Assembly: GCA_019187485.1 (NCBI GenBank)
Contig: JABAQR010000037.1
Coordinates: forward strand, 1-64,000
DNA length: 64,000 nucleotides
Direction of reading: 5' to 3'
Source: Lysobacterales bacterium
GTDB lineage: Bacteria; Pseudomonadota; Gammaproteobacteria; Xanthomonadales; SZUA-5
Shown here: positions 32,688 to 48,297 of the stretch, in pieces
Layout of the letters: each line of letters begins with the position of its first letter
Numbering within the stretch: position 1 is the first letter of the stretch
The notes under the pieces: model-generated
Seen by the model: the letters and a program-made list of their open reading frames with translations, nothing else
Told to the model about the DNA's origin: nothing
Database searches by the model: none
Translations under genes and position numbers: made by a program

Positions 32688-33749
32688 TCAGGCGCGCGCT
32701 CCCGGTCGTCCACGACCGAGCCACCACAGCACCGCGCTGAGCAGCAGCACCGCACCGCCCTGGTGCAGAGTACCGAGCCATACCGGCACGTGCAGCAGCA
32801 GAGTGCTGATGCCGAGCACGACCTGCAACAGCACCGCGGCCAGCAATCCGTGCTGCGCGCTCCGCAGCACGCGATCTACCGTGCGCCTTCCGCGCCACCA
32901 CATCACGAGCACGCAGCCGAACAGCGTCAGCGCCAGCAGACGGTGGACGAACTGCACCGCGACCGGGTTCTCGAACAGGTTCAGCCAGGACGGATCGAAT
33001 GCGTCGAGTCCGGGCGGTATCCAGTGTCCGCCCATGGTCGGGAAAGTGTTGAACATGTGGCCGGCACGCAGGCCGGCGACGAAGGCGCCCCACAGGATGG
33101 TCGTCGCGGCCAGCGCCAGCAGCCACCAGCCCGCGCGCGGGCGCACGGGCGCATCAGCGGGCGCCGGCGCGAGCGTGCGCACCGCCAGCCAGAACATGCA
33201 GGCATAGATCGCCAACGCCAGCGACAGGTGCGCGGCAAGCCGGTAGTGCGAAACCCGCGGGATGTCGACCAGACCGCTGCGGACCATGAACCAGCCCATC
33301 CAGCCCTGCAAGGCGCCCAGCGCAAGCACGCCAATCAGCGGCCGTTTCAGCCGCGTCGGGATCGCGCCGCGCAGCCAGAACCAGGCCAGCGGCAGCGCGA
33401 ATACGAAACCCAGCAGGCGCGCGAGCAGGCGGTGCCCGTACTCGTACCAGAAGATCAGTTGGAAGTCACCGAGTGTCATTCCCTGGTTCACCTTCAGGTA
33501 CTGCGGACTCTGTCGGTACTTGTCGAACTCCGCCTGCCAGGCGGCCTCGTCCAGTGGCGGCAGCACGCCGGTCACCGGTCGCCAATCCACAATCGACAGG
33601 CCCGACTCGGTCAGCCGGGTCGCCCCACCGAGCATCACCAGCGCCCACAGCACGGCGCAGCAGGCGAGCAACCAGATCCCGATCGCGCGTTCGCGCGTGC
33701 GAGCGGCCGAATGGCCATCGACCGTCGTCGTCATCGTCATCGCATGCAT
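32688..33749 (-). CDS. ctaA: Heme A synthase (CtaA/COX15 type)
   Basis: 353 residues with eight membrane helices. It oxidises the heme O methyl group to formyl, giving heme A. Conserved heme-binding histidine segments: YEYGHRLLARLLGF, SHYRLAAHLSLAL, AGHMFNTFPTMGGHW, VQFVHRLLALTL and LGTLHQGGAVLLL. The N-terminal MLGGATRLTESGLSI is typical of the COX15/proteobacterial branch. The ATG at 33749 has GGAG eight bases upstream; ATGs at 33745, 33740 and 33734 lie nearby, the first out of frame. It is divergent from the oxidase genes, with a shared FNR/DNR-like palindrome between. Confidence 0.92.
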   Translation of the reverse strand: MHAMTMTTTVDGHSAARTRERAIGIWLLACCAVLWALVMLGGATRLTESGLSIVDWRPVTGVLPPLDEAAWQAEFDKYRQSPQYLKVNQGMTLGDFQLIFWYEYGHRLLARLLGFVFALPLAWFWLRGAIPTRLKRPLIGVLALGALQGWMGWFMVRSGLVDIPRVSHYRLAAHLSLALAIYACMFWLAVRTLAPAPADAPVRPRAGWWLLALAATTILWGAFVAGLRAGHMFNTFPTMGGHWIPPGLDAFDPSWLNLFENPVAVQFVHRLLALTLFGCVLVMWWRGRRTVDRVLRSAQHGLLAAVLLQVVLGISTLLLHVPVWLGTLHQGGAVLLLSAVLWWLGRGRPGARA

Positions 33750-33836
33750 CCGGAAGTCTCCATGGCGCCGCCGGATACCAGCATCGGGGCGAGCGGGCAA
33801 GCGGTCCTGCGTGAATGCCGGTCACCTGCAAGGCGG

Positions 33837-33850
33837 TTGACTCGCGTCAA
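33837..33850. promoter_or_regulatory. FNR/DNR-like palindrome between ctaA and the heme-copper enzyme genes
   Basis: TTGAC, four bases, GTCAA: arms and spacing match the FNR/ANR/DNR consensus (TTGAT-N4-ATCAA) with one change per half. Its centre is 68 bases before the small gene's ATG at 33912. CAAATA at 33875-33880 is a possible -10 roughly where a class-II FNR promoter (site centre near -41) would place it. DNR/NNR regulators answer to NO and FNR/ANR to low oxygen, which would fit an NO- or O2-reducing enzyme. The match is by eye, not by a scored matrix. Confidence 0.45.
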
Positions 33851-33911: not shown

Positions 33912-34064
33912 ATGAGTGAACACCCGCAGGACGAAAAAGTGCCCTGGATACAGCAATTGCTGGACAACCCCTTCCTGCTGCTGTTCCTGGGCGTCATGGT
34001 GCCGATGGTGGTGTACACGCTCTGGGGCGTGATCGACATCCTGACCATCCCGGCAGCCAAGTGA
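33912..34064 (+). CDS. One-helix small membrane peptide, oxidase-associated
   Basis: 50 residues: a polar N-terminus (MSEHPQDEKVPWIQQLLDNP), one membrane helix (FLLLFLGVMVPMVVYTLWGV) and a short tail. GCAGGAAAC lies about eight bases upstream of the ATG. It is the first gene of the rightward heme-copper set and resembles in size and place the one-helix accessory subunits of B-family and cbb3 oxidases (subunit IIa, CcoQ), though no sequence signature proves this. Too short for routine ORF cut-offs, so easily missed. Confidence 0.7.
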   Translation: MSEHPQDEKVPWIQQLLDNPFLLLFLGVMVPMVVYTLWGVIDILTIPAAK

Positions 34065-34228: not shown

Positions 34229-34768
34229 ATGAGTGCCATCCTGCCCCCGGCCGAACGGCTGTGGTGGAAACACCCGCTGGACCGCGTCGAAGGGACGTGG
34301 ATCGCCATCGCCTTCGTCTGGTGCATGGTGATGTTCTTCATGATGGTCTACTGGCACGTCTACGGCCGCCAGAACCTCTCCACCGAGACCTACAAGACCA
34401 CGCCGGAACAGTTCTCGGCGAAGGCCCAGGCGATGGTCGACGCCTACACGGTGCGCACCGAAACCAGCATGCAGACGCCGGTGGTGGCGCCGCCGGCCGG
34501 CAGCGACATCTACATGATCGCGCGACTGTGGAACTTCTGGCCGATCCTGGAACTGGAGAAGGACCAGACCTACCGCCTGCACCTGACCAGCATGGACTAC
34601 AACCACGGCTTCTCGTTGCAGCCCGCCAACATCAACATCCAGGTGGTGCCCGGTTACGAGCATGTGGTGACGGTGACGCCGAACCAGAGTGGCACCTACT
34701 CGGTGGTGTGCAATGAATTCTGCGGGATCGGCCATCACATGATGGTCGGTCGCATCTACGTGAAGTGA
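34229..34768 (+). CDS. CuA-type heme-copper enzyme subunit II
   Basis: 179 residues. One membrane helix (WIAIAFVWCMVMFFMMVYW, about 24-43), then a periplasmic cupredoxin domain with a complete CuA site: H126 (DYNHGFS), C161, C165, H169 and M172 (CNEFCGIGHHMM, spacing 3-3-2). The short one-helix form is that of B-family (ba3-like) oxidases and of CuA-containing NO reductases such as the sNOR small subunit. The ATG at 34229 has AAGGA upstream. Eleven bases separate its stop from the subunit I start, so they are co-translated. It passes electrons, probably from a c-type cytochrome or cupredoxin, to subunit I. Confidence 0.9.
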   Translation: MSAILPPAERLWWKHPLDRVEGTWIAIAFVWCMVMFFMMVYWHVYGRQNLSTETYKTTPEQFSAKAQAMVDAYTVRTETSMQTPVVAPPAGSDIYMIARLWNFWPILELEKDQTYRLHLTSMDYNHGFSLQPANINIQVVPGYEHVVTVTPNQSGTYSVVCNEFCGIGHHMMVGRIYVK

Positions 34769-34779
34769 CGGAGACAGCC

Positions 34780-36474
34780 ATGGCAAGCATCTATCGCACC
34801 TGCCCGCGCTCCGGGCTGCAATTCGAATCGAACGCCGAGAAACTGATGATCGCCAACGCGGTCGCGGCGGTGGTGTTCCTGCTGATCGGCGGCATCCTCG
34901 CGATCGGCGTGGTCCTGACCCGCTGGCCGGCGGTGCACTGGCTGGAGGCGGACACCTTCTACAAGGTGCTGACCGCGCACGGCATCGACATGCTGATCTT
35001 CTGGATCATCTTCTTCGAGATCGCGGTGTTGTACTTCTGCTCGTCGACGCTGCTGCGCTGTCGCCTCGCCACACCGAAGATCGCGTGGCTGGCCTTCGCG
35101 CTGATGGTGATCGGCGCGGTGGTCAACAACATCGCGGTCTACCAGGGCGGATCCTCGGTGATGATGACCAGCTATGTGCCGATGATGGCGGCGCCGTCCT
35201 TCTACCTCGGCCTGATCCTGTTCGCGGTCGGCGCACTGATCGGCTGCTTCGTATTCTTCGGTACGCTGGTGGTGGCCAAACGCGACAAGACCTACCAGGG
35301 TTCGGTGCCGCTGGTCACCTTCGGCGCGATCACCGCCTGCATCATCGCGGTGTTCACGATCGTTTCCGGCGCGATCATCCTGATCCCGACCTTCCTGAAG
35401 TCGGTCGGAGTGATCGAACACGTCGACGCACTCGTCTACCGCACCATCTGGTGGGCCTTCGGCCACTCCTCGCAGCAGATCAACGTCGCCGCGCACATCT
35501 CCATCTGGTACGCGGTGGCGGCGATCGCCTTCGGCGCCAAGCCGATGTCCGAACGCGTCTCACGCGGCGCCTTCCTGCTGTACATCCTGTTCCTGCAGCT
35601 CGCTTCCGCCCACCATCTGCTCGCCGATCCCGGCATGAGCACCGAGTGGAAGGTCGTCAACACCAGCTACTTCATGTACTTCGCGGTACTCGCCTCGATG
35701 ATCCATGGATTGACCATCCCGGGCGCGATGGAAGTCGCGCAACGGCAGAAGGGCTACGACAAAGGCCTGTTCGAGTGGCTGCGTCGCGCCCCCTGGGGCA
35801 ACCCGGTGTTTGCCGGCGTGTTCATCTCCCTGATCGGCTTCGGCTTCCTGGGCGGCATCTCGGGCGTGATGATGGGTACCGAGCAGCTCAACATGATCAT
35901 CCACAACACGATCTACGTACCGGGGCATTTCCACGCCACGGTGGTGGTCGGCACCACCTTGTCCTTCATGGCGCTGACCTTCTATCTGATCCCGGTGCTG
36001 TTCCGTCGCGAGATGATCAATCCGAAGCTGGCGCAATGGCAGCCCTGGCTGTTCGGCCTGTCGATGTACTTCTTCTGCCTGGTCATGATGGGCGCCGGTA
36101 CCCTCGGCGTCTCCCGCCGCCACTGGGACATGGCCTTTGCCGGCAATGCGCTGGCCTACGAGTGGCCGGGCGCCGCGTACCTGATGATGGGCCTGGTCGG
36201 TATCGCCGGCCTTGGCGCGATCATCGGCGGCGCGATCTACATCTGGATCACGGTGGGCTCGCTGCTGTGGGGCAAGCGCCTGGACGCCGGCCGCGAGAGC
36301 CGCGAGCCGACACCGATCCCGCCGACCGCACCCACGCTGGCGGTACAGAGCTACGGCTCGCTCGGCTTCGCGGCTCCCGGCACCTTCGTGCTCGCGATCA
36401 TCTTCCTGGTCTCCTTCGTCCTCTACTACTTCATCAACTGGAAGTATCTGTCGACGCTGTGGGGACTGAGCTGA
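34780..36474 (+). CDS. Heme-copper enzyme subunit I lacking the active-site tyrosine (NO-reductase-like?)
   Basis: 564 residues, about 13 helices. Heme and CuB ligands are complete: H67 (low-spin heme), H229 (CuB), H278-H279 (CuB pair, ASAHHLLADPG) and H383/H385 (GHFHAT). But H229 is followed by SSQQ, so glutamine Q233 stands where oxygen reductases of families A and B have the cross-linked tyrosine. Known B-related NO reductases (sNOR and relatives) lack this tyrosine, and the order small subunit, large subunit, SCO protein resembles the described norS-norY-senC set. It may therefore reduce NO rather than O2; this is inference. The start is ATG 34780 with GGAG six bases upstream. Confidence 0.9.
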   Translation: MASIYRTCPRSGLQFESNAEKLMIANAVAAVVFLLIGGILAIGVVLTRWPAVHWLEADTFYKVLTAHGIDMLIFWIIFFEIAVLYFCSSTLLRCRLATPKIAWLAFALMVIGAVVNNIAVYQGGSSVMMTSYVPMMAAPSFYLGLILFAVGALIGCFVFFGTLVVAKRDKTYQGSVPLVTFGAITACIIAVFTIVSGAIILIPTFLKSVGVIEHVDALVYRTIWWAFGHSSQQINVAAHISIWYAVAAIAFGAKPMSERVSRGAFLLYILFLQLASAHHLLADPGMSTEWKVVNTSYFMYFAVLASMIHGLTIPGAMEVAQRQKGYDKGLFEWLRRAPWGNPVFAGVFISLIGFGFLGGISGVMMGTEQLNMIIHNTIYVPGHFHATVVVGTTLSFMALTFYLIPVLFRREMINPKLAQWQPWLFGLSMYFFCLVMMGAGTLGVSRRHWDMAFAGNALAYEWPGAAYLMMGLVGIAGLGAIIGGAIYIWITVGSLLWGKRLDAGRESREPTPIPPTAPTLAVQSYGSLGFAAPGTFVLAIIFLVSFVLYYFINWKYLSTLWGLS

Positions 36475-36481
36475 GGTACCA

Positions 36482-36656
36482 CGAGGGCACGAGGGCACGG
36501 GAAGAGCGTGCACCGGCGGCTGGGGAGTCTTGCGCATGAAACCGGGTATGCAATTGCGATTCGAGTCGGAGGCACCGGAACCCCTACTCGCGTGCCCTCG
36601 TGCCCTCGCGCCCTCGTGCTCTCCGGCTTCAATTGCCTTCGTGCCCTCGTGCCCTC
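36482..36656. repeat. Inverted ACGAGGGC-type repeats flanking the ctaB start
   Basis: The 17-base arm CGAGGGCACGAGGGCAC at 36482-36498 is exactly complementary to 36592-36608, and its 16-base core again to 36641-36656. In mRNA either pairing would place the ctaB ribosome site (GGGGAG, about 36522-36527) and ATG (36536) inside the loop. The second and third copies are read as coding sequence in ctaB. The same unit occurs upstream of ubiE (30466-30492). Confidence 0.65.
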
Positions 36657-37540
36657 AGGTTGCCGCCACCCGTCGTCCCTTCGAACGCACCCTGCTGGTG
36701 CTCTCGCTGTTCAAACTGCGCATCGGGGTGCTGATCACACTGACCGCGCTGGTCGGTTACGTGGCCACACCGGGACACGCGGCGAGCGCCGCGCAAGTAC
36801 TCGCGCTGACCTTGGCAACCCTTGTTTCCTCCTGCGCTGCGGGCGCCTTCAACCAGTGGTTCGAACGCGACTCCGACCGCCGCATGGCGCGCACGCGCGG
36901 GCGCGCCTTCGCCAGCGGCGCGCTGCCGGCGCACCCCGCCTGGCCCGCCCTCTTTGCGGCGATGCTGCTGCTCTCCACCGCCGCCGCGGCCGTCTCGGTG
37001 AGTCTGCTGGCGGCGGCTTTCGTCTTCGCGGGCGCGGTCACCTACGCCCTGATCTACACGGTCTGGCTGAAGCGCCGCACCGCGTGGAACATCGTCATCG
37101 GCGGTGCCGCCGGCAGCTTCGCCGCGCTCGCCGGCGCGGCCGCCTCGGATCCCTTGCTGCCGCCGATGGCGTGGGCGTTGGCGCTGGTGCTGCTGCTGTG
37201 GACGCCACCGCATTTCTGGAGTCTGGCGATCGCCGGCGCGGCCGACTACGCCGCCGCCGGCGTACCGATGCTGCCGAACGTGATCGGCGCCGAACGCACC
37301 GCGCGCGTCGTGCACGCGAGTACGCTGGCGCTGGTGGCTTCCTCGCTGTTGCCTCTGCTGGCCGGCGCCGGGGTGGTCTACCTGATCGCCGTCATCGCCG
37401 GCGGCGGCTGGTTCCTGTGGCGCTCCTGGCTGCTCAAGCTCGCGCCCTCGCGCGACCGTGCGATCAAATGCTTCCTCGCCTCGCTGCTGCAACTCTGCCT
37501 GGTGCTCGGCGGGCTCTGTCTCGATGTGATCGTGGGTTAG
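36536..37540 (+). CDS. ctaB: Protoheme IX farnesyltransferase (heme O synthase) with repeat-encoded N-terminus
   Basis: 334 residues, nine membrane helices; a UbiA-superfamily enzyme that farnesylates heme B to heme O. Asp-rich motif 1 is NQWFERDSDRRMARTRGR, with loop-2 sequence YTVWLKRRTAWNIVIGG, and TPPHFWSLAI is typical of CyoE/CtaB. The conserved protein starts near FERTLLVLSLFKLR; the 45 or so residues before that are encoded partly by the ACGAGGGC repeats (ACPRALAPSCSP). ATG 36536 has a strong GGGGAG eight bases upstream, so the extension may be translated; GTG 36641 is a weaker alternative. With ctaA it supplies heme A for the heme-copper enzyme. Confidence 0.88.
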   Translation: MKPGMQLRFESEAPEPLLACPRALAPSCSPASIAFVPSCPQVAATRRPFERTLLVLSLFKLRIGVLITLTALVGYVATPGHAASAAQVLALTLATLVSSCAAGAFNQWFERDSDRRMARTRGRAFASGALPAHPAWPALFAAMLLLSTAAAAVSVSLLAAAFVFAGAVTYALIYTVWLKRRTAWNIVIGGAAGSFAALAGAAASDPLLPPMAWALALVLLLWTPPHFWSLAIAGAADYAAAGVPMLPNVIGAERTARVVHASTLALVASSLLPLLAGAGVVYLIAVIAGGGWFLWRSWLLKLAPSRDRAIKCFLASLLQLCLVLGGLCLDVIVG

Positions 37541-37543
37541 CCC

Positions 37544-38341
37544 ATGCCTGCGCCCCGATTCGCGGTTCTGCTGGCGCTGTGCGGATTGTCCACGCCGGCG
37601 CCCGCCGGATTGGATGCGGAGGCGGCGGCTACTGCGAGCCGCACCGCGATCGGCAGCACGCCGCCGGATTTCCGTCTGCGCGAGCGCGACGGGCAGGCCC
37701 TCGCGCTGAGCGCGTTTCGCGGCAAGCCGCTGCTGGTCAACTTCATCTACACCGGCTGCCACACGGTCTGCCCGACCAGTTCGCGCGCGCTGAAGCGCGC
37801 GGTCAACGCGATGCGCGAGCGTTTCGGGCCGAACCAGTTCAACGTCGCCAGCATCGGATTCGACCAGCCGCAGGACTCGCCGCTCGCGCTGCGCGACTTC
37901 GCCGCGCGCCAGCGCATCGACGATCCCAACTGGGCCTTCCTGAGCCCGCGCCGGGAAGACGTGCCGGCGCTTGCGCGGGCCTACGGGTTCTCGTACGCGG
38001 CCTCGCCGATGGGCTACGACCACACGCTCCAGGTATCGATCCTCGACGCGCAGGGCCGGATCCTCACACAGGTGCTCGGCGACGACTACCCGCCGGATGC
38101 GATCGGCGAGCCGCTGAAGCGACTGCTCGCGGGCAGCCTCGTCGAGGGCGATGCCGGCAGCTTCTCCGACCTGTGGGACAAGATCCGCATCCTGTGTTCG
38201 GTCTACGACCCCGCGACCGGGAAATACCGCAACGACTGGGGCCTCGCGCTCGAGATCGCCGGCGGCCTCAGCTTCCTCGGATTCATGCTGGCGATGGTCA
38301 TCGGCGAATGGCGCGCACGGCGGGCGCTGCGGCCGGGATGA
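37544..38341 (+). CDS. SCO1/SenC copper chaperone with C-terminal membrane anchor
   Basis: 265 residues. Signal peptide, then a thioredoxin-like SCO domain with the copper ligands C72 and C76 (GCHTVCP) and distal H160 (YDHTLQV). A C-terminal helix (IAGGLSFLGFMLAMVIGEW) anchors it, unlike most SCO proteins, which are anchored N-terminally. SCO proteins deliver copper to the CuA centre of subunit II. Its ATG is four bases after the ctaB stop. In the described sNOR clusters a senC gene follows the two subunits, which fits the reading of this set. Confidence 0.9.
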   Translation: MPAPRFAVLLALCGLSTPAPAGLDAEAAATASRTAIGSTPPDFRLRERDGQALALSAFRGKPLLVNFIYTGCHTVCPTSSRALKRAVNAMRERFGPNQFNVASIGFDQPQDSPLALRDFAARQRIDDPNWAFLSPRREDVPALARAYGFSYAASPMGYDHTLQVSILDAQGRILTQVLGDDYPPDAIGEPLKRLLAGSLVEGDAGSFSDLWDKIRILCSVYDPATGKYRNDWGLALEIAGGLSFLGFMLAMVIGEWRARRALRPG

Positions 38342-38592: not shown

Positions 38593-40041
38593 ATGAGCTG
38601 GCGTTCCTTCGAACACGCACTCGACCGCTGGTTTCCGGCAGGCACCAACCCGCTGCGTCACCTCGGCGCACTCGCCTGTCTGGCGCTCGCGCTGCTGCTG
38701 ACCACGGGTGCCTGGTTGTTCGCGGTCTACGACAGCTCGGTCGCCGGCGCACATCCTTCGGTTTCGGCGCTCGCCGCACAGCCGTTGGCCGGGGGTCTGG
38801 TGCGCGGACTGCATCGCTACGCCGGCGACGCCCTGCTGATCTTCGTCTGGCTGCATCTGCTGCGCGAGTGGGCCCTGGGCCGCCATCGCCTGTTCCGGCG
38901 CGCGACTTGGTGGACCGGGCTGCCGTTGCTGCCCTTCCTCTACATCGTCGCGATCGGCGGTTTCTGGCTGGCCTGGGATCGGCTGGCGCAGTACGCCGCG
39001 ATCGCGAGTGCGCAGTGGCTGGACACGCTGCCGCTGGTGGGCGGCGGCTTCGCGCGCCAGTTCGACCTGGAGGTCCCGGATCGCCTGTTCTCGCTGCTGT
39101 TGTTCGTGCACACGGGGGTGGCGCTGCTGGTGGTGTTCGCGCTGTGGTTCCACCTGCAGCGGCTGGCGCGGCCGGCGCTGTGGCCGCCGCGCGCGCTCGC
39201 GCTGGGCACGCTCGGCGTGCTGCTGGCGCTGGCGCTGCTGTGGCCGGTGCGCAGCGGTCCGCCAGCCGAACTCGGCAGTGCGCCGCTCATTGCCTCCTTC
39301 GACTGGTGGCTGCTGCATCTGCTGCCGCTCGCGGACGCGACGCCCACGCTCGCCTGGCTGGCGGTCGTCGCGATGCTGGCGCTGCTCGCGCTTGCGCCCC
39401 TGTGGCCGCGCGCACCGGCCGCGTCCGCCGCGGTGGTCGATGCCGAGAATTGCAACGGCTGCGGCCGTTGCGTGGACGACTGTCCCTATGTCGCGGTGAG
39501 TCTGGTCACGCGCACCGGCGGTGATGCGCTTGCGGTGGTCGACGCCGATCTCTGCGCCGCCTGCGGGCTGTGTGCAGGCGCCTGTCCAAGCGCGACCCCT
39601 TTTCGCAGCAACACGCGCTTGATCAGCGGCATCGACCTGCCGGGCTCCACGGTGGATGCGCTGCGTCTGCGCCTGCGCGCGCAGCTCGCCGCGCGACCGG
39701 CGGCGGTGGTGGTGTACGCCTGCGAACGCGGTGCCGGACCGAGCACCGATGTCGCCGGCGTCGACTGCGTCTGGCTGCCCCTCGCCTGCGTCGGCCAGTT
39801 GCCTCCGGCCTTCGTCGACTACGCACTGCGCCAGGGTGCGACCGGCGTCGTCGTCGCCGCCTGCGAGGCCTGCGAGTTCCGCCTCGGCGAGCGTTACGCG
39901 CGCGAGCGCCTCGCCGGCCTGCGCGAGCCGCGACTGCGGGCGCGCGTACCGACGCAACGCTGGCGCATCGTGCGCGCGGCGGAGGGTGAGGAGCGGCAAT
40001 TGACCGAAGTCATCGACGGCTTGCGGCGCGCTCGTGGATAG
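38593..40041 (+). CDS. Cytochrome b fused to two 4Fe-4S clusters and an MvhD-like domain
   Basis: 482 residues. Helices of a bc-type cytochrome b come first, with two bis-histidine heme pairs: H74/H88 and H173/H187. A segment PAELGS...DWWLLHLLPL corresponds to the region around the PEWY motif. Then a two-cluster ferredoxin: C287, C290, C293, C297 and C321, C324, C327, C331. The last 110 residues (VVYACERG, PLACVGQLPPAFVDYAL, AACEACEFRLGERY) resemble the MvhD/FlpD electron-transfer subunit, with C377, C399, C424 and C427 as 2Fe-2S candidates. It should link a cytosolic iron-sulfur donor to membrane hemes. First gene of a four-gene overlapping operon. I know of no characterised protein with this order. 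Confidence 0.85.
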   Translation: MSWRSFEHALDRWFPAGTNPLRHLGALACLALALLLTTGAWLFAVYDSSVAGAHPSVSALAAQPLAGGLVRGLHRYAGDALLIFVWLHLLREWALGRHRLFRRATWWTGLPLLPFLYIVAIGGFWLAWDRLAQYAAIASAQWLDTLPLVGGGFARQFDLEVPDRLFSLLLFVHTGVALLVVFALWFHLQRLARPALWPPRALALGTLGVLLALALLWPVRSGPPAELGSAPLIASFDWWLLHLLPLADATPTLAWLAVVAMLALLALAPLWPRAPAASAAVVDAENCNGCGRCVDDCPYVAVSLVTRTGGDALAVVDADLCAACGLCAGACPSATPFRSNTRLISGIDLPGSTVDALRLRLRAQLAARPAAVVVYACERGAGPSTDVAGVDCVWLPLACVGQLPPAFVDYALRQGATGVVVAACEACEFRLGERYARERLAGLREPRLRARVPTQRWRIVRAAEGEERQLTEVIDGLRRARG

Positions 40042-40552
40042 TCCACGCATGTACTCGTGGCGCGCACTCATTGGTCAGACGCTGCTGTATGCGGCCTTCG
40101 CGGCGGCGATCGGGATCGGCTCGTGGTGGCCACCCTACCAGCACCTCGCGCCCGGGCGCGCGCTGGTCAAACTGAGCATGGTCCATCACGGCGAGCGCTT
40201 GGGCGAATGCGTCGCGCTGACTCCCGAGGAACTGGCGCAACTGCCGCCGAACATGCGCGCGCCGACCCGCTGCCCACGTGAGCGTGCACCGGTCACGGTC
40301 GAGGTGGACATCGACGGGGCCCCCGCGATCCGTCGCAGCGCGCAGCCCTCCGGACTCGCGCGCGATGGCGCGGCGGTGCTCCACGAACGCCTGGAAGTGG
40401 CCGCCGGCGCGCACCGCATCGGCGTGCGCATGCGCGACCGCGCCGGCGAGGAGGGTTTCGGCTACAGCCTAGACACCGACGTGACGCTCGCCCCGGCCGA
40501 GATTCTGGTGGTCGACTTCGATGCGGAGACGCGGAGGATCGTGTTGCGATGA
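40034..40552 (+). CDS. One-helix periplasmic protein of the cytochrome b operon
   Basis: 172 residues: one N-terminal helix (ALIGQTLLYAAFAAAIGIGSWW) and a strand-rich periplasmic domain with conserved-looking C56 and C80 (GECVALTPEEL, TRCPRERAPVTVEVDIDG) and a beta-rich end (HRIGVRMRDRAGEEGFGYSL). No heme or copper motif is seen. GTG 40034 overlaps the upstream stop by 8 bases; ATG 40049 is an alternative. Its own stop overlaps the next ATG as ATGA. The tight coupling says it belongs to the same complex, perhaps as an assembly or docking subunit. Confidence 0.7.
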   Translation: MDSPRMYSWRALIGQTLLYAAFAAAIGIGSWWPPYQHLAPGRALVKLSMVHHGERLGECVALTPEELAQLPPNMRAPTRCPRERAPVTVEVDIDGAPAIRRSAQPSGLARDGAAVLHERLEVAAGAHRIGVRMRDRAGEEGFGYSLDTDVTLAPAEILVVDFDAETRRIVLR

Positions 40553-41994
40553 GAACGGGATCCGAATCGGTTTTCCCGCCCGCGTTGGGTCCCGGGTCGC
40601 TGTGGTCGCATGCACCGGTCCATCGCTCGCAGGCCGCATCCGGCGTCGAATTCCTGCTGGTGGTGCCGCAGGACGCGCGCCGGGCGCTGGCGCGCGCCTG
40701 GTTGTGGCTGGGCCTGCTCGCACTGATCGGTTCCGGTGTCTACTCGCTGCTGTTGGTGCTGGCACGCACGCCCGGCGTGAACGCCTGGCTGCCGGTGGCC
40801 GATTTCTTCCGGGTCGCGCTGGTGGTGCACGTCGACCTTTCGGTGCTGGTCTGGTTCGTCGCCCTCGCCGGCCTGCTGTGGACACTGGCCGGCCGCGCCC
40901 TCGCGCTGCCGCTGCTGCGCGCGGCGATCGCGTTGTGCGGTGCGGGCGCCCTCGGCATGCTGTTGGCGCCCTGGTCGGGCAGCGCCACGCCAGTGATGGC
41001 CAACTACATTCCGGTACTGGACGGGCCGGTATTTCTCGGTGGCCTGCTGCTGTTCGGACTCGGCGCGTGCGCACTGGTCGCGCAGGCGTTGTGGGCGGCG
41101 CCGCGCATCGGTCCGGTCGTCGATGGCGCGGGTGCGTTGCATTTCGGGCTCAACGCCGCGGCAGTGTCGGCCGCAGTCGCGCTCGGCGCTTTCTTCGCCT
41201 CATGGTGGCTGACGCCGCGGGTGGCGGATGCGCGCACTTTCTATGAGCTGCTGTTCTGGGGCGGAGGGCACGCGCTGCAATTTGCCTGGACGCTGCTGAT
41301 GCTGGTCGGCTGGTTGTGGCTGGCGGCGGCGATCGGCGCGCGTGTGCCCTTGTCGCCGCGGGTTGCGCTGTTGCTGTTCGCGCTGGCGCTGGCGGCGGTG
41401 TTCGCGACGCCGGTGGCCTACCTGGCACACCCGGTTGAATCGGTCGAGCATCGTGCCTTGCACACATGGGCCATGCGCATCGGCGGTGGTCTCGCGATCG
41501 CGCCGGTGGCGCTGGCCGTGGTGCAAGCCCTGCTGCGCCGCCGCGCGGCGAGCGACGCGATCCAGGCGCCGCTGCACGCAGCGCTGCTCTCTTCGATGCT
41601 GCTGTTCGCCGCCGGCGGCGTGATCGGAGTCTTCATCGCCGGCAGCAATGTGCGCATTCCCGCGCACTACCACGGCTGCATCGTCGGCGTGACGCTGGCG
41701 CTGATGGGACTGGTTTATCTGCTGCTGCCGCGACTGGGCTGGCGCGCACCGCAGGGCGCGCTGGCGCGCTGGCAGCCGTGGGTGTACGGAATCGGCCAGT
41801 TGTTGCATATCGTCGGTCTGGTGTGGTCCGGCGGCTACGGCGTGCAGCGCAAGATCGCCGGCACGGAGCAGGTGCTGCGCAGCGGCGCCGAGGTCGCCGG
41901 CATGGGTGTGATGGGGCTGGGCGGCCTGCTCGCGATCATCGGCGGACTGCTGTTCGTGCTGGTGGTCTGGCGATCGATGCGCAACGACTCATGA
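40549..41994 (+). CDS. Lone, divergent heme-copper oxidase subunit I homologue
   Basis: 481 residues, about 12 helices, NorB/CcoN superfamily by pattern. H94 (VVHVDLSVLVWF) fits the low-spin heme ligand of helix II, H241 (GGGHALQFAWTL) the CuB histidine of helix VI, and H373/H375 (PAHYHGCIVG) the two heme histidines of helix X. The CuB pair of helix VII is not adjacent: H301 and H305 (VEHRALHTW) are the only candidates. No tyrosine or NorB-type glutamates are seen near H241. There is no CuA or cytochrome c subunit beside it; instead it sits between two cytochrome b fusions. It may use a quinone or flavin-fed heme b donor to reduce NO, O2 or another ligand. Function unknown. Confidence 0.8.
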   Translation: MRTGSESVFPPALGPGSLWSHAPVHRSQAASGVEFLLVVPQDARRALARAWLWLGLLALIGSGVYSLLLVLARTPGVNAWLPVADFFRVALVVHVDLSVLVWFVALAGLLWTLAGRALALPLLRAAIALCGAGALGMLLAPWSGSATPVMANYIPVLDGPVFLGGLLLFGLGACALVAQALWAAPRIGPVVDGAGALHFGLNAAAVSAAVALGAFFASWWLTPRVADARTFYELLFWGGGHALQFAWTLLMLVGWLWLAAAIGARVPLSPRVALLLFALALAAVFATPVAYLAHPVESVEHRALHTWAMRIGGGLAIAPVALAVVQALLRRRAASDAIQAPLHAALLSSMLLFAAGGVIGVFIAGSNVRIPAHYHGCIVGVTLALMGLVYLLLPRLGWRAPQGALARWQPWVYGIGQLLHIVGLVWSGGYGVQRKIAGTEQVLRSGAEVAGMGVMGLGGLLAIIGGLLFVLVVWRSMRNDS

Positions 41995-43919
41995 GCGGCC
42001 CACTGCAACGTGCGCTGCGCGCGGCCTTCCTGCGGATCGAGGGGGCGTTCAACCATGCCTTCGGCGAGCGCCTGAACCCGTGGTATCACTTGGGCTCATT
42101 GGGCTGGTGGTTGTACTGGATCGTCGCCGTCAGCGGCCTGTACCTGTACGCCTTCTTCGACACCAGCGTCGCCGGTGCCCACGCCTCGGCGCAAGGACTG
42201 ACCGATTCCTGGATTGGCGGCCCATTGCGCAGCCTGCACCGCTACGCCGCCGACGGCCTGCTGGTGGTGCTGGTGGTGCACGCCTGGCGCCACTACGCCC
42301 ACGATCGTCTGCGCGGCTTCCGTGCCTACTCCTGGTGGACCGGCGTGATCCTGTTCGGACTGGCCTATGCCGCCGGCGTCAATGGCTACATGCTGCCCTG
42401 GGACCGGCTCGCGCAATTCGTCACCGTCGCCGGCTTCGAATGGCTGGACTGGCTGCCGATGTTCGGGGGCGTGCTCGGACGCAACACCATCGACGCCGCC
42501 AGCGTCACCGACCGGCTGTTCTCGCTGCTGGTGTTCATCCACATCGGTGTGCCCCTGCTCGCGCTGCTGTTGCTGTGGGCGCACGTGCAGCGAGTACCGA
42601 AGGCGCGCACCCAGCCGCCACGCGCACTCGCCGCCGCCTCGCTGGCTTCGTTGCTGGCGCTTTCGCTGGTCCTGCCGGTGGCCAGCCAAGGAGGTCCGGC
42701 GGAACTCGGCAGCGAACCGATGCGTCTGGCGCTGGACTGGTTCTATCTCGGCCCATTCCCGCTGCTGTACCGGATCGGTGCAGGGCCGCTGTGGGCACTG
42801 GTGATCGGACTGACGCTGCTGTTGCTGGTGCTGCCCTGGCTGCGACGGCCGGCGTCGGGGCAACAGCGTTTCCAGGTCGTCCTGCATGCGAGTGCGGTCC
42901 CGGGGGCGACCAGGGACGCGCGCGCGGCGGCCACGCGGCACCTGCTGGCGCGGCCGGGCGAGACCTTGCTCGATGCTGGACTGCGCGCCGGCCTGGCGCT
43001 GCCCTACGACTGCCGCAATGGCGGTTGCCGCGTGTGCGTGGCCACGCTGCTGAACGGGCGCGTCGATCCCGGTCCTTTCCAGGAGGCGGCGCTGGACGCG
43101 GGAGCGCGCGCGCGCGGCGAGGTGTTGATGTGCTGCGCCTGTGCGCTGGAGGACGTCGAACTGGACGTGCCGGTGCCCGATCTGGGCGCGAGCCAGACGC
43201 AGGCCCCACGCGAACGTGTGGCGCGCGTGGCGCGCTTGGAGCGCCTCGCCGAGACCGTGATGCAGGTCGAACTGGAGCTCCTGGATGGTGCGCCCATCGA
43301 CTACGCGGCCGGCCAGTACCTGGAGATTCTGCTCGCCGACGGCGCGCGTCGCGCCTACTCTTTCGCCAGTGCGCCGGGTTCCGGTCCGTTGATCGAGCTG
43401 CACATTCGGCGGCAACCGGGCGGTCTCTACAGCACCCATGTGTTCGAGCGCATGCAGGTAGGCGAGCGCGTGCGCCTGCTCGCACCGCTCGGTCATTTCA
43501 CCCTGCACGCGGGCACGCGACCGATCCTGATGGTCGCTGGCGCGACCGGCTTCGCACCGGTCAAGAGCCTGATCGAGGACGCCTTCGCCCGTGGTGTGAA
43601 GCGACAGATCGCGCTCTACTGGGGCGTGCGCCATCCGCGCGACTTCTATCTGCCCGAACTGCTGTCGCGCTGGCAGCGCGAGCGCCCGAACTTCAGCGTG
43701 GTGCAGGTGGTGTCCGAGCCGGAATCCGCACCGGAGTGGCAAGGGCGCACCGGCCTCGTGCACGAGGCGCTGCTGGAGGACTATCCGCAGTTGGCGGCCT
43801 GCGAGGTCTACGCCTGCGGTTCGATGCAGATGGTGCAGCAGATCCTGCCGGTGCTGCGCGCGCACGGCCTGCCCGAGGACGCCTGTTACAGCGATGCCTT
43901 CGTCGCCGCCTCAGGCTGA
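41991..43919 (+). CDS. Cytochrome b fused to 2Fe-2S ferredoxin and FAD/NAD reductase
   Basis: 642 residues. Cytochrome b module with H83/H97 and H184/H198; it shares TSVAGAH, WDRLAQ and DRLFSLLVFIH with the first gene, so the two modules are paralogous. LDWFYLGPFPLLYR matches the PEWYFL region. A plant-type ferredoxin follows (C341, C346, C349 and C381/C382: YDCRNGGCRVC), then a ferredoxin reductase: RAYSFASAP for FAD, GHFTL, and LMVAGATGFAP for NAD(P)H. It could carry electrons from NAD(P)H to membrane hemes in one chain. ATG overlaps the previous stop (ATGA). Its end overlaps the convergent kinase gene by 9 bases. Confidence 0.88.
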   Translation: MSGPLQRALRAAFLRIEGAFNHAFGERLNPWYHLGSLGWWLYWIVAVSGLYLYAFFDTSVAGAHASAQGLTDSWIGGPLRSLHRYAADGLLVVLVVHAWRHYAHDRLRGFRAYSWWTGVILFGLAYAAGVNGYMLPWDRLAQFVTVAGFEWLDWLPMFGGVLGRNTIDAASVTDRLFSLLVFIHIGVPLLALLLLWAHVQRVPKARTQPPRALAAASLASLLALSLVLPVASQGGPAELGSEPMRLALDWFYLGPFPLLYRIGAGPLWALVIGLTLLLLVLPWLRRPASGQQRFQVVLHASAVPGATRDARAAATRHLLARPGETLLDAGLRAGLALPYDCRNGGCRVCVATLLNGRVDPGPFQEAALDAGARARGEVLMCCACALEDVELDVPVPDLGASQTQAPRERVARVARLERLAETVMQVELELLDGAPIDYAAGQYLEILLADGARRAYSFASAPGSGPLIELHIRRQPGGLYSTHVFERMQVGERVRLLAPLGHFTLHAGTRPILMVAGATGFAPVKSLIEDAFARGVKRQIALYWGVRHPRDFYLPELLSRWQRERPNFSVVQVVSEPESAPEWQGRTGLVHEALLEDYPQLAACEVYACGSMQMVQQILPVLRAHGLPEDACYSDAFVAASG

Positions 43920-46974: not shown

Positions 46975-48297
46975 ATGGCTGTTTTGGTCAACAAGAAGAC
47001 GCGGGTGATCTGCCAGGGCTTCACCGGCACGCAGGGCACCTTCCACTCCGAGCAGGCGCTCGACTACGGCACCAAGCTGGTCGGTGGCGTGACGCCGGGC
47101 AAGGCCGGCAAGGATCACATCGGTCTGCCGGTGTTCAACACCGTGCAGGACGCGGTCGAGGAGACCGGCGCCGAGGCGAGCATGATCTTCGTGCCACCGC
47201 CCTTTGCGGCCGATGCGATCCTCGAAGCCGCGGACGCCGGCATCAAGGTGATCGTCGCGATCACCGAGGGCATCCCGGTGCTCGACATGCTACGCGTCAA
47301 GCACGTGCTCGAAAGCTGCTATCCGGGGACCAGCCTGATCGGTCCCAACTGTCCGGGCATCATCACCCCGGGCGAATGCAAGATCGGCATCATGCCGGGC
47401 TTCATCCACAAGCCCGGCAAGGTCGGCATCGTGTCGCGCTCCGGCACGCTGACCTACGAAGCCGTGTACCAGACGACCAAGGTCGGCCTGGGTCAGAGCA
47501 CCTGCATCGGCATCGGTGGCGATCCGATCCAGGGCATGAACTTCGTCGACTGCCTGCGTCTGTTCCAGGACGATCCGCAGACCGAGGCCATCATCATGGT
47601 CGGCGAGATCGGTGGCAGTGCCGAAGAAGAAGCCGCGGAGTTCATCGCGGAATACGTGACCAAACCCGTGGTCGCCTACATTGCCGGCGTGGCTGCGCCG
47701 GCGGGCAAACGCATGGGCCACGCCGGCGCCATCATCGCCGGCGGCAAGGGCACGGCAGCAGCCAAGTTCGAAGCGCTGGACCGCGCCGGAGTGACGACGG
47801 TGCGTTCCCCCACGGAACTGGGAGAAGCGGTTCAGAAGCGCCTTTCCGGCGCCAAACCAAAATCGTCATCCACGAAGGGGAGTGCCATCATGAAAACCGA
47901 GACTGTGACACAAGACGTGCCGGCCGCGCCGGCGGCTCCGGCGAAGAAGCCGGCGGCGAAGAAGGCGGCTGCGAAGCCCGCCGCGAAGAAGGCTGCGCCG
48001 ACGAAGAAGGCTGCTCCGGCGAAAGCTGCACCGACCAAGAAGGCCGCACCTGCGAAGAAGGCTGCACCGGCCAAGGCGGCTCCCGCCAAGAAGGCCGCAC
48101 CCGCGAAGAAGGCTGCACCGGCCAAAGCGGCTCCCGCCAAGAAGGCCGCACCCGCGAAGAAGGCTGCACCGGCCAAAGCGGCTCCCGCCAAGAAGGCCGC
48201 TCCGGCCAAGGCGACTGCGGCCAAGAAAGCGGCTCCGGCGAAGGCCGCTCCGGCCAAGAAGGCTGCACCGGCCAAGAAGGCCGCCGCGAAGAAGTGA
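46975..48297 (+). CDS. sucD: Succinyl-CoA synthetase alpha subunit fused to a histone-H1-like tail
   Basis: 440 residues. The first 290 or so are a normal Suc[41 protein letters not shown], the phospho-histidine segment [10 protein letters not shown] and the usual end [15 protein letters not shown]. The frame then continues without a stop through [15 protein letters not shown] into [11 protein letters not shown] and about 120 residues of Lys/Ala/Pro repeats (PAKKAAPAK) like AlgP and bacterial H1-like proteins. SucD is normally about 290 residues. A Shine-Dalgarno just before M306 suggests the tail was, or is, a separate gene (listed separately). Either a true fusion or loss of the sucD stop. 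Confidence 0.93.
47890..48297 (+). CDS. Histone-H1-like Lys/Ala/Pro-rich protein from an internal start in sucD
   Basis: 135 residues in the same frame as sucD, starting at an ATG with AGGGGAG about eight bases upstream. The sequence is [17 protein letters not shown] then PAKKAAPAK-type repeats, highly basic, typical of proteins that bind DNA non-specifically (AlgP, HctB and H1-like proteins). If translation begins here the cell makes a free H1-like protein as well as the SucD fusion. Confidence reflects doubt about separate expression, not about the sequence. Confidence 0.5.
48010..48213 (+). repeat. 51-base tandem repeats in the H1-like tail
   Basis: Four units of 51 bases starting at 48010, 48061, 48112 and 48163, each encoding 17 residues of the [17 protein letters not shown] type. 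Units two to four are nearly identical in bases, which points to recent expansion by slippage or recombination, so copy number may vary between strains. Confidence 0.75.

Follow-up and report, generated by a model that had tools for sequence, protein, structure and literature searches.

We analysed a stretch of 64,000 nucleotides (the window) from a Lysobacterales bacterium (GCA_019187485.1, contig JABAQR010000037.1, positions 1 to 64,000), in which two cytochrome b fusion proteins are encoded on either side of a one-helix protein and a homologue of heme-copper subunit I. An earlier note, made from the sequence of the window, had described these as a four-gene operon built around a lone subunit I without a CuA partner. 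We found that the four genes almost certainly belong to a nine-gene operon, made up of eight genes in conserved order and a small peptide gene, of which they form the distal half. Upstream on the same strand lie genes for a CuA subunit II, a second subunit I, CtaB and Sco and, further 5', a membrane peptide of 50 amino acids (aa) and an FNR-type box. Below, HCO1 is the upstream second subunit I, HCO2 is the subunit I of the original four-gene set, and the two cytochrome b (cyt b) fusions are called cyt b-FlpD and cyt b-FNR.

33837..33850, +: FNR/DNR-type box TTGACTCGCGTCAA, an exact match, 62 bases upstream of the operon's first gene
33912..34064, +: 50-aa one-helix membrane peptide, for which tblastn gave a match directly 5' of the CuA gene in all but one of 91 loci (90/91)
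34229..34768, +: CuA-bearing subunit II (cupredoxin; PF00116)
34765..36474, +: HCO1, B-family heme-copper subunit I, probably of nitric oxide (NO) reductase type (PF00115, 220 bits)
36530..37540, +: CtaB/CyoE heme O synthase (51 of 55 loci; relatives align from residue 57)
37544..38341, +: Sco/SenC copper chaperone (PF02630; 55 of 55 loci)
38593..40041, +: cyt b-FlpD, with cytochrome b (aa 22-270), two [4Fe-4S] clusters (280-333) and an FlpD/MvhD domain (372-476), from Pfam
40034..40552 (start perhaps 40049), +: one-helix periplasmic beta-sandwich protein (AlphaFold2 (AF2) model, pLDDT 94)
40549..41994, +: HCO2, heme-copper-fold paralogue without the CuB histidines of transmembrane helix 7 (TM7) (COX1 PF00115, 51 bits, weak but above cut-off)
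41991..43919, +: cyt b-FNR, with cytochrome b, [2Fe-2S] ferredoxin, FAD and NAD(P)H domains, from Pfam
32688..33800, -: CtaA heme A synthase, transcribed divergently from the operon; several relatives have a homologue in this place and orientation, and elsewhere CtaA adjoins cyt b-FlpD or HCO2

Extent and conservation of the operon

The four open reading frames (ORFs) of the earlier note (38593-40041, 40034-40552, 40549-41994 and 41991-43919, all +) are real and overlap by 8, 4 and 4 bases as called, although the 8-base overlap depends on a GTG start at 40034. The starts of relatives of the second gene, which encodes the one-helix protein, align near an ATG at 40049; this is the likelier start in the alignment and would leave a 7-base gap instead of an overlap. 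The true start of CtaB probably lies about 55 codons inside its called ORF. Pfam agreed with the domains that had been assigned to the two fusions and to HCO2 (cytochrome b/[4Fe-4S]/FlpD; cytochrome b/Fer2/FAD/NAD; COX1). The description of HCO2 as a lone subunit I did not hold, as the CuA subunit II and HCO1 lie upstream and are conserved with it; the genes had been grouped correctly, and the unit had been cut too short.

The same cluster was found in four relatives from the same order. A search of bacterial genomes with HCO2 as query gave more than 500 relatives, of which the best 80, mostly from Burkholderiales and Lysobacterales, were kept; locus statistics were taken from the 55 of these 80 loci whose flanking DNA was long enough. 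All of these long loci (55/55) contained the CuA subunit, HCO1, Sco, the one-helix protein and HCO2, a figure inflated by the choice of loci by similarity to HCO2, such that the conservation holds for HCO2's neighbourhood of the tree and not for all relatives. cyt b-FNR was present in 53, CtaB in 51 and cyt b-FlpD in 50 of the 55. Gene order, which the earlier note had proposed to compare across genomes, was conserved and in 39 of the 55 loci identical to that of the window, showing that the arrangement is not due to chance. A clustering of ORFs for extra operon members was dominated by antisense ORFs, the DNA being rich in GC.

The upstream region was surveyed in 91 loci, with stretches of 200 bases as controls. 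An exact FNR-type box was found within 200 bases 5' of the first gene in 28 of the 91 loci, compared with 0.9% of control stretches; when up to one mismatch was allowed, these figures were 59/91 and 3.1%. An FNR/DNR-type regulator would probably induce the operon at low O2 and/or with NO. The 50-aa peptide is likely to be the small, IIa-like subunit of the B-type enzyme. It is unannotated in the window, and automatic annotation probably misses such genes.

HCO1 and the association with NirS-type denitrification

The CuA ligands of subunit II (C161, C165, H169, M172 and H126) were invariant in 85/85 aligned sequences. In the HCO1 alignment (n=88), H234, H283, H284, H388 and H390 were invariant, as were Q237 and Q238, and H72 was found in all 86 rows with letters at that position. 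The nearest solved structures to HCO1 are B-family oxidases (ba3 and the Aquifex oxidase), and in our tree HCO1 grouped with B-family oxidases against the A and C families and cNOR/qNOR. The cross-linked Tyr of O2 reductases, whose position was set by alignment to ba3, is replaced by Gln in 88/88 HCO1 sequences. According to Table A4 of PMC8756737, this position holds Tyr in O2 reductases, Asn in sNOR, Gln in eNOR and Asp in gNOR. HCO1 is therefore NOR-type, and eNOR-like by this residue, and probably belongs to a known NOR family or is closely related to one. Assignment of HCO1 to sNOR was rejected, with Gln instead of Asn in 88/88. Among the equivalents of ba3 proton-channel residues, Y248 and S309 are kept, Y244 is replaced by Ile or Val and T312 by His. 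Going by its residues and its genomic context, HCO1 is likely to reduce NO. The earlier note had proposed NO or O2 as the substrate; NO is the better guess, for the neighbouring HCO1 and not for the protein pointed at.

We then surveyed 274 Gammaproteobacteria, sampled evenly across families. cyt b-FlpD was encoded in 24 of them and was accompanied by HCO1 in 23, the sole genome without HCO1 being 77% complete. PF02239, which covers cd1 NirS and also NirF and NirN, was matched in 21 of the 24 cyt b-FlpD genomes versus 33 of the 250 others (Fisher p=5e-14). NirK was found in 0/24 cyt b-FlpD genomes, which was not significant. Genes for nirS or for heme d1 biosynthesis lay near the cluster in 27 of 130 loci, with NirJ above its curated cut-off.

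About ten near-complete genomes, that of the window among them, carried HCO1 and PF02239 genes with no cNOR or qNOR (G000, G121, G196, G205, G252, G257, G265, G297, G303 and G306); NirS itself was inspected at the sequence level in the window's genome and in some of the others, the proteins of G257 and G303 being divergent. HCO1 is the only heme-copper candidate for NO removal in genomes of this kind. An apparent cyt b/HCO2 module without HCO1 in G196 and G306 was dismissed, HCO1 being encoded 14 kb away on the same contig. The window's genome encodes nirS (L280:6702-8396, -, contig C15), 68% identical to that of a relative, together with aa3 and cbb3 oxidases, HCO1 and HCO2; searches of this genome for NirK, NosZ, cNOR and qNOR found none. 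The nirS gene was its only PF02239 match, and nirF and nirN were not found there.

The cytochrome b fusions, the one-helix protein and HCO2

In 18 cyt b-FlpD sequences the four heme histidines (H74/H88/H173/H187), the eight [4Fe-4S] cysteines and the [2Fe-2S] cysteines of the FlpD domain (C377, C399, C424 and C427) were invariant. The heme histidines of cyt b-FNR (H83/H97/H184/H198) were likewise invariant, and its CxxxxCxxC...C, FAD and NAD motifs were conserved; its C-terminal half is a BenC/MmoC-like reductase. The bis-His pairs 14 residues apart, to which the earlier note had drawn attention, are thus fixed in both modules. A WDRLAQ motif is also shared by both, as reported; it lies in the region of the general cyt b/b6 'LPWDQ' motif, so its sharing shows common family only and no special link. 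The Rieske protein and PF00032 (the cytochrome b C-terminal domain with the Qo site) had no Pfam match among the operon proteins tested.

A third fusion was found in a cluster of the same type in G195 (L135:3675-6212, -), where cytochrome b is joined to flavodoxin, FAD and NAD domains in the manner of a CysJ-like diflavin reductase. One membrane cyt b module therefore carries at least three unrelated cytoplasmic donor modules, from which the simplest inference is that it takes electrons from the cytoplasm; we regard this direction as likely. The modules also occur singly, cyt b-FNR being the only fusion in clusters L053, L064, L079, L080, L085, L088 and L096, and cyt b-FlpD in L063, L095 and others. 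A path from NAD(P)H and Fe-S donors into the membrane, as first proposed, fits the domains and is strengthened by the diflavin fusion and the NirS association. The further suggestion of a bifurcating or confurcating module was not borne out: no bifurcating flavoprotein (such as HdrA, NfnAB or Etf) is encoded, and FlpD alone does not bifurcate. In the Herbaspirillum sp. locus (L063:15207-19196), the cluster is followed by genes resembling parts of a cbb3 oxidase and HemN, and upstream lies a gene resembling a FIST-domain sensor (a candidate).

The one-helix protein has two cysteines, C59 and C80, that are invariant among its relatives. It had no Pfam match, and a fold search with its AF2 model gave no significant match. 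In L016 and L137 it is fused to cyt b-FlpD, which fits a helix that links the cytoplasmic Fe-S domain to the periplasmic domain.

The AF2 model of HCO2 (pLDDT 90) matched Thermus thermophilus ba3 best (Foldseek E 1e-7, TM score 0.72), while a PDB search by sequence gave no match with a single sequence and only chance matches with a profile. In a tree whose sampling left out other B-type NOR families, the HCO2 sequences fell into a single clade (100/100) that has a long stem and branches next to HCO1. The low-spin and high-spin heme histidines are kept (H94 in 108 of 109 sequences; H373 and H375 in 109/109), as are the TM6 CuB histidine H241 (109/109) and H420; E233, Q244 and Y291 are conserved. 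Both histidines of the TM7 His-His pair of CuB are absent in 108 of the 109 sequences, and one of the two in the remaining sequence; the cross-linked Tyr of ba3 is lacking as well. HCO2 is, by its residues, unable to hold a normal CuB. Most likely it holds two hemes and, with no catalytic function, acts as a partner in electron transfer or assembly; the second heme is perhaps bis-His ligated through H241.

HCO2 also occurs outside NO-reductase clusters in standalone loci (L147, L148, L150, L151, L143, L140, L141 and L142), where its neighbours are aa3 oxidase, ctaA or ctaB genes or a gene read as rpoH, often on the opposite strand. In L094:420-10044, cyt b-FlpD and HCO2 lie directly 3' of Sco, CtaB and a complete cytochrome c oxidase of the A type, in which the Tyr of HPxVY is present, and are followed by a CtaA-like gene.

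Proposed electron input, rival explanations and known systems

To our knowledge, known NO reductases receive their electrons from cytochrome c or quinol. On balance we favour a denitrification NO-reductase operon with a dedicated cytoplasmic electron input. HCO1, the CuA subunit and the small subunit would form a B-family, CuA-containing NO reductase in NirS-type denitrifiers, built with the help of CtaB and Sco. Electrons would reach heme b on the cytoplasmic side, either from cytoplasmic NAD(P)H through the FAD and [2Fe-2S] groups of cyt b-FNR, or from a ferredoxin-like donor through the FlpD domain and two [4Fe-4S] clusters of cyt b-FlpD. The two b hemes would then move them to the periplasmic half of the membrane, and the HCO1 complex would accept them, directly or through the one-helix protein and/or HCO2. 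NO would in this way be reduced at the expense of NAD(P)H or ferredoxin without the involvement of quinol and cytochrome bc1. HCO1 is the likeliest final acceptor in our view, though we place it slightly short of an even chance. The scheme in its fullest form, in which the NO reductase is driven by NAD(P)H or ferredoxin via a cyt b with exchangeable donors and HCO2 is a CuB-less diheme electron-transfer subunit, is speculative and taken as a whole rather unlikely.

Several observations weigh against the favoured reading. The CuA enzyme could receive electrons from an ordinary cytochrome c, contact between cyt b and HCO1 being hypothetical; many Burkholderiales with the operon carry additional NO reductases; and the choice of loci by HCO2, mentioned above, favours high conservation. 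Four genomes (G150, G205, G252 and G266) have retained HCO1, Sco, cyt b-FlpD and the one-helix protein but lack HCO2, and elsewhere HCO2 stands without cyt b modules beside aa3 oxidase, CtaA, CtaB, Sco or an ORF read as RpoH (a label from reading the ORF, without a family-library scan). On both counts HCO2 does not strictly belong to the NO reductase, and its distribution indicates an accessory that associates with heme-copper enzymes, not the subunit that provides catalysis in a four-gene complex.

The leading alternative is a role in assembly, where cyt b-FlpD, the one-helix protein with its Cys pair and HCO2 would send reducing equivalents to the periplasm for maturation of HCO1 and not for its turnover, either keeping the thiols and copper of Sco and CuA reduced or supporting heme O/A synthesis by CtaB and CtaA. 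The gene set lies between or beside Sco, CtaB and CtaA, the one-helix protein has its two invariant cysteines, and the occurrence of HCO2 by itself beside aa3 oxidase, CtaA, CtaB and Sco loci is as expected of a general maturation factor. Two or three heavy electron-input modules look excessive for this purpose, however, and thioredoxin-like proteins normally serve Sco. The CtaA link is also loose, with CtaA within reach in 6 of the 55 loci. We consider an assembly role possible, if somewhat unlikely.

We also think it unlikely that the cyt b fusions are NAD(P)H- or ferredoxin:quinone oxidoreductases, or run in reverse from quinol, and are merely co-regulated with the NO reductase. Proteins of the cyt b/b6 type with two b hemes often bind quinone, and G121 encodes a lone cyt b-FNR far from any oxidase; the company of HCO1 in 23 of 24 cyt b-FlpD genomes and the fusion of cyt b-FlpD to a periplasmic domain nevertheless point to a specific partner.

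An improbable reading is that HCO1 is a low-O2 terminal oxidase and the operon a microaerobic oxidase operon. An FNR box would suit microaerobic oxidases too, and a high-affinity oxidase function has been argued for the B-type 'sNOR' of Nitrosomonas europaea (PMC6967387). Set against this are the replacement of Tyr by Gln throughout HCO1, the strong NirS association and the lack of another NO reductase in the roughly ten NirS-type genomes, which already possess aa3 and/or cbb3 oxidases.

Finally, the site of catalysis in HCO2 favoured by the earlier note was rejected on account of the two CuB ligands, out of three, that are absent throughout the family, and an NO- or O2-reducing site with a rebuilt metal centre is very improbable: the ligand of the high-spin heme and the TM6 His are retained without exception and E233, Q244 and Y291 are conserved, but the TM7 histidines are lost, HCO2 has no subunit of its own and it is found beside complete oxidases.

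Among known systems, eNOR is a B-family-derived NO reductase with Gln for Tyr (PMC8756737, Table A4; attributed to Hemp & Gennis 2008), reported from Gallionellaceae and Zetaproteobacteria (PMC10734462, PMC8114936). eNOR and HCO1 share the B-family lineage, a cupredoxin subunit II encoded upstream, the Gln and co-occurrence with nirS in Proteobacteria; a conserved channel is attributed to eNOR, whereas HCO1 differs at two of the ba3 channel positions examined. The literature searched, with subscription papers mostly outside the search, yielded no description of HCO2, the one-helix protein or either cyt b fusion alongside eNOR. The sNOR of ammonia oxidisers is encoded by norSY-senC-orf1 (PMC4940428) and has the same order of CuA subunit, B-type subunit I and SenC/Sco as the operon described here; it differs by Asn where HCO1 has Gln, no cyt b modules are described for it, and orf1 was not identified in our operon. 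The qCuA-NOR (bNOR) of Bacillus azotoformans comprises a small peptide, a CuA subunit, a B-type subunit I and SenC (PMC3475470). The likeness extends to the single helix of the small peptide, and ctaB adjoins in B. bataviensis; in contrast to HCO1, this enzyme has Asn at the Tyr position and menaquinol or cytochrome c as donor, with no NAD(P)H or Fe-S cyt b fusion.

For the electron-input modules, aa 277-477 of cyt b-FlpD match residues 569-764 of HdrA2 (two [4Fe-4S] clusters and FlpD), although cyt b-FlpD is fused to a cytochrome b and lacks the HdrA flavin part, hydrogenase and HdrBC. The C-terminal half of cyt b-FNR resembles the ferredoxin-FAD-NADH reductases BenC and MmoC but is joined to cytochrome b and serves no oxygenase. 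Both cyt b modules share the four heme-b histidines of bc1/b6f, while the Rieske protein and Qo-site domain of those complexes had no match among the operon proteins tested. Thermus ba3 subunit I has the same fold as HCO2 and is a sequence relative of HCO1; HCO2 differs from it in having neither the histidine pair of CuB nor the cross-linked Tyr. No description of cyt b fusions with exchangeable donors or of a CuB-less subunit I was found in the literature covered, which took in few subscription papers.

Annotation often overlooks alternative NO reductases, and little is known of what donates electrons to them. In the present case, about ten near-complete NirS-type genomes lacking cNOR and qNOR encode a NOR-type enzyme together with a candidate electron supply of its own that draws on NAD(P)H and Fe-S donors. 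HCO2 represents a widespread heme-copper-fold family that has kept its hemes and lost CuB, and is a natural test of the copper-free fold; since it also adjoins ordinary aa3 oxidase loci, its function bears on oxidase biology generally. The system can be tested in hosts that are in culture, namely Castellaniella defragrans DSM 12141, Comamonas granuli, Simplicispira spp. and Acidovorax sp.

Elsewhere in the window, the ORF at 46975-48297 (+) resembles the succinyl-CoA ligase alpha subunit and continues with no stop codon into a long tail that is rich in Lys, Ala and Pro and resembles histone H1, a candidate fusion or a candidate read-through of the adjacent gene.

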